From a virus, in the IMG/VR virus record IMGVR_UViG_3300042301_000163, positions 1 through 37,206 of that record: a DNA stretch of 37,206 nt. The stretch is one strand, 5' to 3'. Both the position numbers and the translations under genes were made by a program. Below, piece after piece: positions 21,150 through 36,596 of the stretch. Positions within the stretch are counted from its first letter, which is position 1. Each line of letters opens with the position of its first letter. The notes beneath the pieces were generated by a model. It was not told the DNA's origin, ran no database searches, and saw nothing but the letters and a program-made list of their open reading frames with translations.

Positions 21150-21344
21150 TCACGTTCCGGCTTTGGCATCAGGCGCGGGTCTAACCTGGTGAACGGCCAC
21201 CACGCTTTTAACTCGCTTTGGGTTAACACGTTCTTCGGTTGTGAACGTGTGCCCGTTGGCGCATTCTCGGCGGCGGGTAACGTGGGTTTGTTTGTTGCGG
21301 CTGTCATTTATTGTGCTCCATGCGTTGCAGATAGGGCAGTTCAA
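21150..21344 (-). CDS. NrdR-like zinc-ribbon protein, 64 aa
   Basis: The N-terminal 40 residues (MNCPICNAWSTINDSRNKQT, then RRRECANGHTFTTEERV) match the zinc ribbon of the NrdR ribonucleotide-reductase repressor, with C3, C6, C28 and H32 as probable metal ligands. The second knuckle is CxxxH where NrdR has CxxC. The ATP-cone domain of NrdR is absent. It may therefore bind DNA or protein without the nucleotide sensor. Such small forms occur in other phages. It ends 12 bases before the next gene. Confidence 0.75.
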   Translation of the reverse strand: MNCPICNAWSTINDSRNKQTHVTRRRECANGHTFTTEERVNPKRVKSVVAVHQVRPAPDAKAGT

Positions 21345-21556
21345 AGTTTGTGTACGTTAAAGTGTTTGGGTTTTTGGGCCATCATCACGGCGGTTTTTGC
21401 GCCGATGCCAACTGTACCGTAATTAGGTGTACCTAATCGTGACCGTTCAATAGCCTTGGTAGATGCAACGCTGCGTTTTAGCGCCGTGTTGTTGTCATCC
21501 TTCTTGCCTTGCCGTTCTTCGTCGGTGTACTGCTTCCAGTTAAATGCGTTGGTCAT
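21341..21556 (-). CDS. Hypothetical protein, 71 aa
   Basis: Overlaps the genes on both sides by 4 bases (ATGA). Starts MTNAFNWKQYTDEERQGKKD, hydrophilic and basic with Ser/Thr and Lys, ending KPKHFNVHKL. No domain recognised. The tight coupling argues that it is a real, translated gene. Confidence 0.65.
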   Translation of the reverse strand: MTNAFNWKQYTDEERQGKKDDNNTALKRSVASTKAIERSRLGTPNYGTVGIGAKTAVMMAQKPKHFNVHKL

Positions 21557-21777
21557 GTGTTCCCCCTTGCTCGGATTTGCCTTGCCAATTCATCCCCAGC
21601 GTATTCAACGCTGTCTTCACACACCTTCGCACACGCCTCACGCTCATCAACACGGACAAGGGCGGCAAAGCGTTCAAGAAGCTGGTCAAACGGAACTGCG
21701 CTGTGAACTTCGCACTTGGTGTAAAGCCCCGCTTCATGCGCCATCTTATTCACTTTGCTATTCACAATGCTATTCAT
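21553..21777 (-). CDS. Conserved small phage protein, 74 aa
   Basis: Starts MNSIVNSKVNKMAHEAGLYT. The C-terminal half contains LERFAALVRVDEREACAKVC, a motif I know from many small phage proteins of unknown role in proteobacterial phages. Coupled by ATGA overlaps on both sides. A frame on the opposite strand covers the same DNA but lacks this conserved motif. Confidence 0.75.
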   Translation of the reverse strand: MNSIVNSKVNKMAHEAGLYTKCEVHSAVPFDQLLERFAALVRVDEREACAKVCEDSVEYAGDELARQIRARGNT

Positions 21778-21986
21778 ATCAACCTCCCGATCACAAACGC
21801 AAGAGAAACCATCAAGCTAAAAACTATCGTCGTCACGAACAGCCAAGTAGCCCATACTAGCTGGCGCTGTATGCCGTTCCAATGCACCTCTGGCAGTTCA
21901 GCGTCATTGAATTGGCAGCTAACTGTGCAGTTATGCGGATGAGGACATGGTTGGATACCGGCAGCGCCGTCACACATTCTGGTCAT
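21774..21986 (-). CDS. Small membrane protein, 70 aa
   Basis: The N-terminal part holds four cysteines and two histidine-containing motifs (CPHPHNCTVSC). One membrane span lies near residues 44-68 (VWATWLFVTTIVFSLMVSLA). Overlaps both neighbours by 4 bases. It could modify the host envelope or act in exclusion, but nothing shows this directly. Confidence 0.65.
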   Translation of the reverse strand: MTRMCDGAAGIQPCPHPHNCTVSCQFNDAELPEVHWNGIQRQLVWATWLFVTTIVFSLMVSLAFVIGRLI

Positions 21987-22177
21987 TCCGCCCCCGTCGA
22001 TATGTACGCTTTCAAACGCTTGATCTGGTTCTTATTGAACGTCACCATCGACGAGGCGTATTCCACGCCAGTCTCTGCTTTGAGTAACTCATGCTCGGCG
22101 CTTACAAGCTGCGTCGCTGCCGATTCCAGCGGTGTAGGCGGCTTAAATAACTTCTTAAATTCGGTGTAGATAATCAT
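21983..22177 (-). CDS. Conserved small phage protein, 64 aa
   Basis: Starts MIIYTEFKKLFKPPTPLESA. The PPTPLE..A...L..AE..LL.AET..EYA......N...I.RLKAY pattern recurs in small helical proteins of many proteobacterial phages. No function is known. 4-base overlaps on both sides. Confidence 0.7.
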   Translation of the reverse strand: MIIYTEFKKLFKPPTPLESAATQLVSAEHELLKAETGVEYASSMVTFNKNQIKRLKAYISTGAE

Positions 22178-22365
22178 GGTTGTTTTGCCTCTTGTAGTAA
22201 TTCGATTCGTTCCCGCGACACGCGCAGTGTGTTGTAGCGCTGGTGCAGCCGCTGCAAGACCGACACGCGGCGGTCGTGCGCCCTCTCATGCGTCAGCATC
22301 TCCAGCACCTTAGACTCATCCAAGGTTCGCAGTTCGGTGTTAAGACTTCGCCAGGTGAGTGTCAA
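22174..22365 (-). CDS. Small helical protein with TTG start, 63 aa
   Basis: The start is TTG at 22365, with GGAG 7 bases upstream on the coding strand (in the 3' part of the preceding gene). No ATG is available until residue 23, so TTG is favoured. Sequence MTLTWRSLNTELRTLDESKV then RRVSVLQRLHQRYNTLRVSR is helical and basic. Function unknown. Confidence 0.6.
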   Translation of the reverse strand: MTLTWRSLNTELRTLDESKVLEMLTHERAHDRRVSVLQRLHQRYNTLRVSRERIELLQEAKQP

Positions 22366-32890: not shown

Positions 32891-33538
32891 TCAGGCCGCT
32901 ACCTTGATGCGAATTACCTTGTGCATGGTTCGGCCATGCGCTGGGTAAGCGATTACCGGCACGGCCTTGTCATAGCACGCCCGGCAACCGCTACATTTAC
33001 CCTCGTTCTCATATGCTCGGCACAATGTAACCATGCCCGGGTTAACGCGGGAATCGGGGACAATTACCGAACCATGCAAACCGGGGATAAATACGCCTAC
33101 GATCGAATCGCTGGACGGCCGAACCATGACATTCGGCAAGGCTTGCATGGCATGCAAAACTAGGGCAAATTTCGGAAATTTATGCATCCGCGTGGGCAAC
33201 CAATGTTTGCACCACGGCGTACGCGTCATGACGTCCAGCATTTTCTCCGCTAGGGCTAGGCTGTACATATCGCCCGAATCGAACCACCGAAAATAACGAT
33301 CACGCTCAAGCTCTGCAACCATATCGTCAACCCATTCGAATCGCGTCCAGTCGATGCGATTGAATTCCCGTGGTGCTTTGACGTTAGCGAACCGGTAATT
33401 TCCCGTGGTCGCGTAGCATCCCTTGCAGGCATCAACTAGCACGCCGGGGCTTTCAATCGAACCGGGGCAAGTGTCTAAGGCTTGCAACGACCATGAACGA
33501 ATCCCGTCCAGTTTTGAGGTAACGCTGATTTTTGGCAT
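32891..33538 (-). CDS. GP88-family phage protein
   Basis: 215 residues. I recognise the pattern of the phage gene 88 family: SKLDGIRSWSLQALDTCPGS at the start, ACKGCYATTGNYRF near residue 37, RWFDSGDMYSLALAEKM near 84, HWLPTRMHKFPKF near 112, and CSGCRACYDKAV plus IAYPAHGRTM at the C-terminus. Cysteines 24, 38, 41 and 182, 185, 188 form two CxxC-like groups that could hold zinc or an iron-sulphur cluster. No biochemical role is established for the family to my knowledge. ATG at 33538 sits after AAGGTTAAACC. Confidence 0.85.
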   Translation of the reverse strand: MPKISVTSKLDGIRSWSLQALDTCPGSIESPGVLVDACKGCYATTGNYRFANVKAPREFNRIDWTRFEWVDDMVAELERDRYFRWFDSGDMYSLALAEKMLDVMTRTPWCKHWLPTRMHKFPKFALVLHAMQALPNVMVRPSSDSIVGVFIPGLHGSVIVPDSRVNPGMVTLCRAYENEGKCSGCRACYDKAVPVIAYPAHGRTMHKVIRIKVAA

Positions 33539-33547
33539 GGTTTAACC

Positions 33548-33670
33548 TTATTTTGTGAGAACGTCAAAGTAGGCCAACATGGCCACAACACCAGCGCCGA
33601 CGATCGCCAGCGCGCCGATGATGTCGAATAGTGCGCGCCGGACGCGCCGGCCGAATAGCGCGCGCATCAT
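33548..33670 (-). CDS. Very small membrane protein, 40 aa
   Basis: ATG at 33670 overlaps the upstream stop as ATGA. Sequence MMRALFGRRVRRALFDIIGA followed by one membrane span (LAIVGAGVVAMLAYF) and a short tail DVLTK. The Arg-rich N-terminus should stay in the cytoplasm. It may alter the host membrane early in infection, but this is a guess from topology. Confidence 0.6.
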   Translation of the reverse strand: MMRALFGRRVRRALFDIIGALAIVGAGVVAMLAYFDVLTK

Positions 33671-33939
33671 GCTTGGCTTTCGTGGTGTTGCGCGACTTCA
33701 AAAATATCGTGATAAGTAGCGGAGAGGTAGGATTGCGCCGCTTCCATGATTGCGGTCATGTCGGCGTCGGCCGGCCAAGTGTTGCAGACTTCGGTCTGAT
33801 CTTGCAATTCGATTCGGTCAGCGTAGACGACGACTTGCAACATCCCGTCGCCGTCGGCGCAATAGACTTTAAGGTAATCGTCAGCGGCCGCGTCGCCTGG
33901 CCATACGTTCCAAGTGATTTTTGATGAGTTAAATACCAT
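33667..33939 (-). CDS. Hypothetical acidic protein, first gene of leftward operon, 90 aa
   Basis: Start at 33939 (MVFNSSKITWNVWPGDAAAD), with AAGG 7-8 bases upstream; a GTG at 33978 lies inside the promoter -10 region and is unlikely. Acidic (many Asp), with VYADRIELQDQTEVCNTWP in the middle and a helical end (IMEAAQSYLSATYHDIFEVA). No family recognised. A consensus-like promoter lies at 33970-33997. Confidence 0.7.
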   Translation of the reverse strand: MVFNSSKITWNVWPGDAAADDYLKVYCADGDGMLQVVVYADRIELQDQTEVCNTWPADADMTAIMEAAQSYLSATYHDIFEVAQHHESQA

Positions 33940-33969
33940 TTTTTGCCTTCGTTTGTTGTTGAAGTCTTG

Positions 33970-33997
33970 AGTGTACACGATTCTTTTACACTGTCAA
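33970..33997 (-). promoter_or_regulatory. Sigma70-type leftward promoter
   Basis: On the minus strand, TTGACA (33997-33992) is followed after 16 bases by TACACT (33975-33970). The -35 is a perfect consensus. The spacer contains GTGTAAAAG, a 9-mer also present in the divergent region at 26056-26064. Transcription would start about 20-30 bases before the ATG at 33939. Confidence 0.7.
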
Positions 33998-34102
33998 CGA
34001 TTTATTTGCTAGGTGTTTACGCTAGGTCATTTGGGTCATAATTTGGGCATGGGTTTACGGCGTGATGACCCATGCGCGAAGCCTTACAGCGTCTCACTAG
34101 TT

Positions 34103-34249
34103 CGGGTTTATGGGTCATTTGGGTCATGAAAAGAAGTCAATATAAAAATATCAAAAAGACTGTATAGATATACAGTAGTGAAATTTCCAATGTTATAAGT
34201 CAGCGATTTTTTCCCGATGACAATATGACCCAAATGACCCATAAACCCG
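34103..34249. repeat. Perfect 25-bp inverted repeat enclosing the LexA-like box
   Basis: 34103-34127 and 34225-34249 are exact reverse complements of each other; each arm contains a GGGTCAT pair plus CGGGTTTA. The 97-bp interior is A/T rich and holds the LexA-like box near its middle. Confidence 0.9.
34158..34177. promoter_or_regulatory. LexA (SOS) box, near-consensus
   Basis: Sequence GACTGTATAGATATACAGTA contains CTGT (34160-34163), 8 bases, then ACAG (34172-34175), within a perfect 8-bp dyad (34159-34176). It matches the E. coli-type consensus TACTGTATATATATACAGTA at 18 of 20 positions. A leftward promoter candidate, TTGGAA (RC of 34185-34190) and TATACA (RC of 34161-34166) with an 18-base spacer, has its -10 inside the box, so LexA binding would block it. 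Confidence 0.75.
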
Positions 34250-34341
34250 GACGACCACGACGCGCGCAAAATGTAATTGGGTCATTTGGGTCAGCAAAAT
34301 AAATTAGCCTAAATGACCCATGACCCTGACCGCCTGCTCCT

Positions 34342-34375
34342 TAATCGATAGCACTCTGCTCTCTAATCGATAGCA
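34342..34375. repeat. 12-bp direct repeat on a 22-bp period
   Basis: TAATCGATAGCA occurs at 34342-34353 and 34364-34375. The 22-bp offset equals two helical turns, so a protein pair could bind on the same face. Each unit contains the palindrome ATCGAT. Confidence 0.75.
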
Positions 34376-34484
34376 GACCGCGTGATGCAAGTAGCCGATT
34401 GTTTTGGGTCAACCCAAATGACCCATCGCGCCATGCATACATCAGTCAATGCTTATATAAACATAAAACTGACTGGCGCCAAGG

Positions 34485-34517
34485 CATAGGGTAAACCCTA
34501 TGTTAGGGTATACCCTA
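34485..34517. promoter_or_regulatory. Twin palindromic operators upstream of terminase genes
   Basis: CATAGGGTAAACCCTATG (34485-34502) is a perfect dyad, followed at 34504-34517 by the dyad TAGGGTATACCCTA. Both contain TAGGGT-WW-ACCCTA and their centres are 17 bp apart. The four alternating half-sites look like tandem operators for a dimeric repressor or activator. Confidence 0.7.
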
Positions 34518-34539
34518 TAGCAATCGGGTTTTTGCTTGC

Positions 34540-34552
34540 GGGGGGAGGGGGG
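34540..34552 (+). other. G6-A-G6 tract
   Basis: Thirteen bases, six G, one A, six G. The same 13-mer occurs at 12488-12500 inside the gp7-position ejection gene. It lies between the twin operators and the small terminase gene. Confidence 0.7.
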
Positions 34553-34648
34553 TACCCGGCGGCAAGAGGTCACGGCTACGAAGGGGCTGAAAACAAAATT
34601 TTTTTTAATATATACTTCGCGCACACGCATCTCGTGGCTGGAGAATCC

Positions 34649-35095
34649 ATGTTCTACTCGCTTCCATTTGAAGCGCGCAAAGTCCAAGCGACAGAGGCGC
34701 GCCTAAACGCCATCTATGACGCTGCCAAGCTAGGGCTAAAGGGCGACACACTCGCATTGGCCGCCGGGATGCTGCCCACCGAATACCGGCAACTGTGCCA
34801 GCTTGACCCTATCGCAGAGGTAGCGGCGATGAAAGGCCGCGCTGATGGCGAGATCACCGCCTCGCGTCAACTGCACCAAGCCGCGCAAGATGGCGACGCT
34901 AAGGCCAGTCTGGCGATTCTGCAAAACGTTCACGGCTGGGTGGCCAAGCAGGCCATCACTATAGACGTCGATCAGCGCATCTCTATCACAGCTGCACTGG
35001 CCGAGGCCGAGCGGCGCGTTATCGACGTGATAGAGAACAACCCTAGTGAACAACTCACGCCACAACTAAATGCAGTCTACCAAGTACAGCGCTGA
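34649..35095 (+). CDS. Terminase small subunit
   Basis: 148 residues (P22 gp3 is 162) from the ATG at 34649, preceded by TGGAGA 5 bases away; the upstream open frame is low-complexity and part of the control region. Residues 1-50 (ARLNAIYDAAKLGLKGDTLA, LAAGMLPTEYRQLCQL) look like a DNA-binding helix-turn-helix. A middle Ala/Lys/Glu helical part (ITASRQLHQAAQDGDAKASL) should make the oligomer. It recognises the packaging site and delivers DNA to the large subunit. Overlaps the large subunit by 26 bases. Confidence 0.85.
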   Translation: MFYSLPFEARKVQATEARLNAIYDAAKLGLKGDTLALAAGMLPTEYRQLCQLDPIAEVAAMKGRADGEITASRQLHQAAQDGDAKASLAILQNVHGWVAKQAITIDVDQRISITAALAEAERRVIDVIENNPSEQLTPQLNAVYQVQR

Positions 35096-36596
35096 AGACG
35101 AACAAGAACTGATGGCCCGGCTATGGTCGGCGCAAGTCAAAGACAACCCGTATGTGTTCGTGATGCTGATGTTCCCGTGGGGCGTCAAGGGCACGCCACT
35201 GGAACACTTCAGTGGGCCGCGCAAATGGCAGCGGGAGGTGCTGCAAGACATAACAGCGCACATCAAGCAGAACAACGGTAAGGTTGACTTTGACACCTTG
35301 CGCGAAGCAGTCGCGTCAGGCCGGGGTATTGGCAAGTCGGCGTTAGTTAGCTGGCTGGTGATCTGGATGCTGACCACGCGAATCGGCTCGACGACCATCG
35401 TGTCGGCCAACAGCGAGTCGCAGTTGCGTAAAGTGACCTGGGCTGAGATTACCAAGTGGCTGGCGATGGGGCTGAACAGCCACTGGTTTGAGGTCAGCGC
35501 AACCAGTCTGCAACCGGCCAAGTGGTTAACCGAGCTAGTCGAGCGCGACCTGCGTAAAGGCACAAGATATTGGGGTGTTGAGGGGCGGCTGTGGTCGGCT
35601 GAGAATCCTGACGCTTTTGCCGGTGTGCACAACATGGACGGTGTGCTGGTGATCTTTGACGAGGCCAGCGGTATTGACGACGCTATCTGGGCGGTGACTG
35701 CCGGCTTCTTTACAGAGAACACGCCGAACAGGTTCTGGTTTGCGTTCTCCAATCCGCGTCGCAACACGGGGTATTTTTACGAAACGTTCCACTCCAAGCG
35801 CGACTTTTGGGATACCAAGGTGGTGGACGCTAGGACAGTCGAGGGGACAGACAAGGCGGTCTATCAGCAGATCATCGACGAGTACGGGCCAGACTCAGCC
35901 CAAGCGCACGTCGAGGTGTACGGTCAGTTTCCAAGCGCGGGCGACGATCAGTTCATCGGAGCTAACACGGTCGATGAGGCCATGAAGCGGATTAAGTACC
36001 AAGACCTGAGCGCGCCGATCGTGATAGGGGTCGATCCGGCGCGGTTTGGCGCCGACGCGACAGTCATCGCGGTCAGGCAGGGGCGGGATATTGTCAAGAT
36101 CATGCGGCACAGGGGCGACGACACCATGACGGTGGTCGGGTATGTGATTGAGGCGATTGAGGAGTTCAAGCCGACGCTGGTGGTGATCGACGAAGGCGGC
36201 TTGGGCGCCGGCATTGTGGACAGGCTCAAAGAGCAGCGGTACAAGATCAAGGGAATAAACTTTGGCAACAAGTCCAAAAACCCTATAATGTACGGAAATA
36301 TGAGGGCGCAGATGTGGGGCGATATGCGCGAGTGGCTGAAGACGGCGAGTATTCCAAACGACAGGTTCTTGAAAAGCGATTTAATTTCGCCTATGATGAA
36401 GCCGGATTCGCGGGGGACTATCTTCTTAGAGTCTAAGAAAGATATGAAGTTACGGGGCTTGGCCTCACCGGACGCAGCCGACGCCATTGCGGTGACGTTT
36501 GCGTTTCCTGTTGCGAATAGAGAAGCGCACGGCAGAACGCAAGTCAGCCGTGTGTACAGTCGAGACAGCGTATCAACTGGATGGATGGGGTCTTAA
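35070..36596 (+). CDS. Terminase large subunit
   Basis: 508 residues (P22 gp2 is 499). ATPase: Walker A SGRGIGKS (Lys89) and Walker B VLVIFDEASG (D197, E198), with VSANSESQLR as the adjacent motif. Nuclease: D322 in GVDPARFGADATVIAV, D374 in VVIDEGGLGAG, and the third acidic site at D468/D471 (LASPDAADAIAV). It is the packaging motor and cuts DNA into headfuls. The start has no clear ribosome site, which fits coupling from the small subunit. The style is that of P22/phage-type headful terminases. Confidence 0.95.
   Translation: MQSTKYSAEDEQELMARLWSAQVKDNPYVFVMLMFPWGVKGTPLEHFSGPRKWQREVLQDITAHIKQNNGKVDFDTLREAVASGRGIGKSALVSWLVIWMLTTRIGSTTIVSANSESQLRKVTWAEITKWLAMGLNSHWFEVSATSLQPAKWLTELVERDLRKGTRYWGVEGRLWSAENPDAFAGVHNMDGVLVIFDEASGIDDAIWAVTAGFFTENTPNRFWFAFSNPRRNTGYFYETFHSKRDFWDTKVVDARTVEGTDKAVYQQIIDEYGPDSAQAHVEVYGQFPSAGDDQFIGANTVDEAMKRIKYQDLSAPIVIGVDPARFGADATVIAVRQGRDIVKIMRHRGDDTMTVVGYVIEAIEEFKPTLVVIDEGGLGAGIVDRLKEQRYKIKGINFGNKSKNPIMYGNMRAQMWGDMREWLKTASIPNDRFLKSDLISPMMKPDSRGTIFLESKKDMKLRGLASPDAADAIAVTFAFPVANREAHGRTQVSRVYSRDSVSTGWMGS

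Follow-up and report, generated by a model that had tools for sequence, protein, structure and literature searches.

What reads the two nearly identical palindromes that stand side by side before the terminase genes of an uncultivated phage? The locus lies in an IMG/VR virus record of 37,206 bases, analysed here as one stretch (the window). The twin dyads are:

34485..34502, no strand assigned: upstream dyad CATAGGGTAAACCCTATG, with 8-bp arms and core AGGGTAAACCCT (exact sequence)
34504..34517, no strand assigned: downstream dyad TAGGGTATACCCTA, a perfect 14-bp palindrome (exact sequence)

They contain the exact 14-mers TAGGGTAAACCCTA (34487-34500) and TAGGGTATACCCTA (34504-34517), the only perfect matches to TAGGGTNNACCCTA in the window. 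Their centres are 17 bp apart, and the pair begins 162 bp and ends 132 bp before the ATG of the small terminase gene, terS (34649). None of 200 dinucleotide-shuffled windows and none of 2000 shuffled copies of the region gave near-identical twin palindromes, and the interval 33979-34648 holds nine palindromes with arms of at least 6, where 0.96 would be expected. The arrangement described in the earlier note, near-identical dyads with 17-bp centre spacing some 130-160 bp before terS, is thus present exactly and absent from shuffled sequence.

The dyads sit inside a non-coding stretch of ~670 bp, flanked on one side by leftward small genes and on the other by the rightward terS-terL pair. Judged by its motifs, this stretch looks like a replication origin joined to the terS promoter region:

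34023..34425, no strand assigned: six TGGGTCATTTGGGTCA iteron pairs, on both strands, a probable replication origin
34159..34176, no strand assigned: LexA/SOS-box-like dyad ACTGTATAGATATACAGT, near-consensus
34334..34375, + strand: two 20-nt direct repeats containing AATCGATAGCA
34403..34418, no strand assigned: iteron-type dyad TTTGGGTCAACCCAAA
34530..34591, + strand: G-rich spacer between the dyads and the T-tract, alignable in relatives, GGGGNGGGGGTAGGGCCG-like
34592..34606, + strand: AACAAAATTTTTTTT tract, its AACAA and TTTT columns the same in all 12 relatives aligned
34587..34616, + strand: putative terS promoter, with a weak -35 (CTGAAA), 18 bp and a -10 (TATACT)
34649..35095, + strand: small terminase gene terS, assigned by position and relatives, no Pfam/PHROG match
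35070..36596, + strand: large terminase gene

The window holds seven TGGGTCATTTGGGTCA iteron pairs against 0.23 expected, and six of the seven fall within 34023..34425. A clear origin signal was absent from the GC skew, and an Rfam scan returned sub-threshold matches only, none covering the dyads. Downstream of the dyads the order is the conserved AACAAWWTTTT tract, a -10-like TATACT/TAAACT box (TATACT/TAAACT/TAAAAT-like in relatives) and the terS ribosome site; the two dyad centres precede the predicted -10 by 103 and 120 bp. LexA/SOS-like sites also occur in the close relatives L008, L009, L011 and L012, and at G010:C1:7467-7482.

We then compared the position of the dyads across 80 relatives fetched by terL. 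The closest (terL 94-96%) lack AGGGT dyads and carry others, mostly of the AGTNAGT...ACTNACT type; in the close relative L014 the slot dyad is CCCTACCCCGGGTAGGG. A collection-wide scan for AGGGTNNACCCT located 62-92 bp before AACAAWWTTTT found 25 contigs, 17 of which encode a terS of the window phage's family. In all 17 family loci the dyad shares the strand of terS and stands 64-92 bp ahead of the tract, with the terS start 144-201 bp downstream, whereas a control palindrome of the same composition (TGGGANNTCCCA) gave 16 contigs in the same scan, none in the family. TTAGTNNNNACTAA was found in this slot in 37 contigs, about 14 of them in the family. In other relatives the slot is filled by GTTAGTNNNNACTAAC/AGTNAGT or further dyads, and about half are without any. 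The downstream flanks of L204, which carries AGGGTAAACCCT, and L254, which carries GTTAGTGGCCACTAAC, are nearly identical.

A census of 55 non-redundant slots from the terL-fetched set assigned three to the AGGGT class, 18 to AGTNAGT/GTTAGT (one also with an iteron-type dyad), six to iteron-type dyads only, one to CCCTAC (a class set by regular expression) and 27 to none of these. A perfect dyad is present in 30 of the 55, compared with 8.6 in shuffles; the iteron part further upstream is also dyad-rich (33 versus 12.6 expected). AGGGTNNACCCT occurs three times in 6,050 bp of slots versus seven times in about 490,900 bp elsewhere. The cultured Rhodoferax phage P26218 lacks all of the dyad types. 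Because dyads stand at the same place in relatives, the closest of which are without AGGGT, the slot by these comparisons is conserved in position, optional, and exchangeable in sequence. Conservation of the 14-mer itself, on which the earlier note had staked its reading, is accordingly partial: it is missing from the closest relatives but recurs at the same place in more distant ones.

These dyads could in principle act as DNA or as RNA. The two in the window are mutually complementary (15-nt arms, 93% complementary) and can pair as one long hairpin with an RNA z-score of -2.4, as expected if they acted as a hairpin within an RNA that runs into terS. However, in a fold comparison of the window, L199 and L204 (L212 was left out), the single-dyad AGGGT relatives are not unusually stable (z 0.08 for L199 and 0.89 for L204), and the scanned region holds no terminator-like site. 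Because single-dyad relatives lack a stable hairpin, a role in RNA only is disfavoured, and we consider it extremely unlikely. We favour recognition as DNA by a dimer, since the dyad arms are fixed in sequence and separated by 2-nt AT-rich spacers, the place of the dyads relative to the promoter tract is fixed, and single-dyad relatives show no RNA structure.

The dyads stand just ahead of terS, a place that would suit a packaging (pac) site recognised by the small terminase. TerS of the window, however, is 90% identical to that of a relative with a different, non-AGGGT dyad and 64-66% identical to those of AGGGT phages, and none of its residues matches the AGGGT phages while differing from non-AGGGT neighbours. 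We therefore rejected TerS as reader and regard a pac site as very improbable. The C-terminal tail of TerL showed an apparent link to dyad class; it is a clade marker, since it is also present in phages without AGGGT dyads (L003, L044 and L080).

Gene content was compared across 19 long phage contigs. For most core proteins the genomes nearest to the window are G010, G011 and G028, although these three carry other dyads. Among the compared contigs, no gene is common to AGGGT phages only, save an open frame that covers the conserved non-coding tract itself, and no protein of the window varies with dyad type in these genomes. The earlier note had offered the NrdR-like zinc ribbon (21150-21344) as a possible reader; it is present in G010 and G028, which have other dyads, and missing from the five other AGGGT genomes compared, and so does not fit that role. 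A 63-aa protein encoded at 22174-22365 (- strand) is found in all compared family genomes and has no PHROG match.

With no gene shared by AGGGT phages only, no AGGGT-specific TerS residue and a TerL tail that marks a clade, a dedicated, conserved phage reader is unlikely on these comparisons. The reader might still be a small phage-encoded regulator, which could differ from one lineage to the next. Several of the window's small proteins, such as those at 21341-21556, 21774-21986 and 33667-33978, are without a homologue in the genomes compared, and in L097 and L122 a 52% relative of the last is close to AGGGT dyads. Yet that relative also occurs in L025 and L082, both without these dyads, and AGGGT phages share no class-specific gene, so that a phage-encoded reader seems doubtful to us. 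As partners of the dyads, gene 33667-33978 and gp88 were rejected, neither being associated with them.

The neighbouring origin offers another reading, in which the dyads are an accessory part of it, bound by the initiator or a partner and not a transcription operator. They lie next to the iteron cluster and to an iteron-type dyad with which they share the core GGGTNNACCC, and iteron type tracks the wing residues of the phage primase-helicase (29926-32214, + strand). Across about 68 loci, the C-terminal wing motif of this protein co-varies with the sequence of iterons spaced 9 bp apart:

wing VAS-x-D(F/Y)(Q/P)-SKKH: iteron TTTGGGTCA
wing KSR-xxD-(T/S/N)KKH: iteron TGTGGACAA
wing LLKSRAHT-TKKH: GTGGGT-rich regions
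wing LASRxYQ-TKKH: TGTTGGC

The pairing is decoupled from terL relatedness. Between the TTTGGGTCA and TGTGGACAA groups, which have similar overall identity, the only perfectly segregating columns are 650, 718, 721 and 722; an AlphaFold2 model (mean pLDDT 76.5) places residues 718, 721 and 722 at the strand that leads into the wing of a domain resembling a winged helix. A fold search with the model of the primase C-terminus gave no significant match, and the weak ones include winged-helix proteins. In the SaPI Rep and Cch2 proteins, the C-terminal domain binds iterons (PMC7581432). The apparent origin-recognition code is therefore a further example of a mode of recognition already known, here unusually clear. 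It may make origin specificity predictable in uncultured phages.

The AGGGT dyads do not follow this code. They occur with all three iteron types (the window, L199/L067 and L203/L212), which argues against the primase wing as their reader, and the reference point for their fixed position is the terS promoter tract. We thus rejected the primase as dyad reader, and we rate an accessory origin role for the dyads as unlikely.

Operators of dimeric helix-turn-helix regulators can be arranged as adjacent near-perfect palindromes, 15-17 bp apart, in a promoter region. The window likewise has adjacent palindromes in a promoter region, but these stand 100-120 bp upstream of the predicted -10 and their type is swapped between close relatives. 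A phage can place sites for a host regulator in its promoter region, as GIL01 does in using LexA/SOS boxes (PMC4551915), and the window has its LexA-box-like dyad at 34159-34176; unlike those boxes, AGGGTNNACCCT is not a LexA site. The binding site of SlmA is GTGAGTACTCAC (PMC3116907). This exact 12-mer, or GTTAGTGAGTACTCACTAAC, lies in or near the slot of the relatives L241, L247, L031 and L053. The window dyads differ from it in sequence and were rejected as an SlmA site, as was SlmA as a general host reader, the GTGAGTACTCAC 12-mer being found in 0 of 26 Burkholderiales genomes.

Further, similar pairs occur beyond the family. Tandem AGGGTNNACCCT is present in 38 viral contigs, mostly with 15-bp spacing, and the control palindrome in none. 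The unrelated phage L106, which also encodes a sigma factor, has tandem dyads both close to the terminase gene group and ahead of the primase (L106:5540-5566 and L106:11437-11463), and another unrelated phage, L094, has one before its portal gene. A GP88-family gene (PF17338), at 32891-33538 (- strand) in the window, is patchy in distribution and lies near AGGGT dyads in the unrelated L090, L095, L105 and L112.

On Alcaligenaceae and related chromosomes, AGGGTTAACCCT pairs with 17-18 bp spacing lie around a -10-like box before a conserved gene of ~60 aa (L123, L128, L138, L139, L154, L155, L159, L164 and L168). In Alcaligenaceae the small gene is often near hslO- and pseudouridine-synthase-like genes, by our reading of the sequences. 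There, AGGGTTAACCCT-N5-AGGGTTAACCCT before the ~62-aa gene has the same half-sites and 17-bp spacing as the window, and the pair flanks a TATAAT -10; the window has TATGTT between its dyads, without a matching -35. At L193 and L198, in Pusillimonas and Variovorax, a single AGGGTTAACCCT is found about 10-20 bp before the start of similar MarR-like genes (family assigned by eye), as if these were autoregulated. Across 300 Burkholderiales genomes the 17-bp-spaced tandem occurred in one, the seed genome itself, and we accordingly treat host use as a lead and not a result. Most other genomes sampled show no enrichment of single dyads, and the enrichment to six to nine per genome comes from genomes picked for holding the tandem. 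The literature yielded AGGGTNNACCCT variants only in unrelated papers.

Taken together, we give about even credence to the twin dyads being a putative operator pair for a homodimeric regulator upstream of the late promoter, more probably one read by the host. The window has near-identical palindromes at short spacing, in a slot that recurs at a fixed position with varying sequence class. This recurrence, and the similar tandems before terminase, primase and portal genes of unrelated phages, support the operator-like DNA element before the terminase operon that the earlier note had proposed; it is the zinc ribbon as its reader that falls away. Two observations make a host-encoded regulator more likely than a dedicated phage repressor: dyad type changes among close relatives without any conserved phage protein changing with it, and similar pairs are found both in unrelated phages and on some Betaproteobacterial chromosomes.

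In the operator model, two dimers would bind the tandem sites 100-120 bp upstream of the terS -10, beside the probable origin, and tune the passage from early and replicative functions to late transcription of terminase and head genes; the dyads might thereby control the whole late region. A spacing of 15-17 bp would place the two dimers on different helix faces. At this distance the dyads do not reach the predicted -10, which makes simple repression by promoter occlusion unlikely; the upstream position would instead suit an activator, action at long range or an influence on the adjacent origin.

More tentatively, a lytic-looking freshwater phage family may keep a plug-in operator slot before its late operon and swap its type (AGGGT, GTTAGT/AGTNAGT, CCCTAC or none) while its own proteins stay unchanged, tying late expression to whichever host regulator is available. 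Were a host regulator to read the slot, phages could link late expression to the state of the host simply by exchanging operators, and such exchanges could track changes of host.
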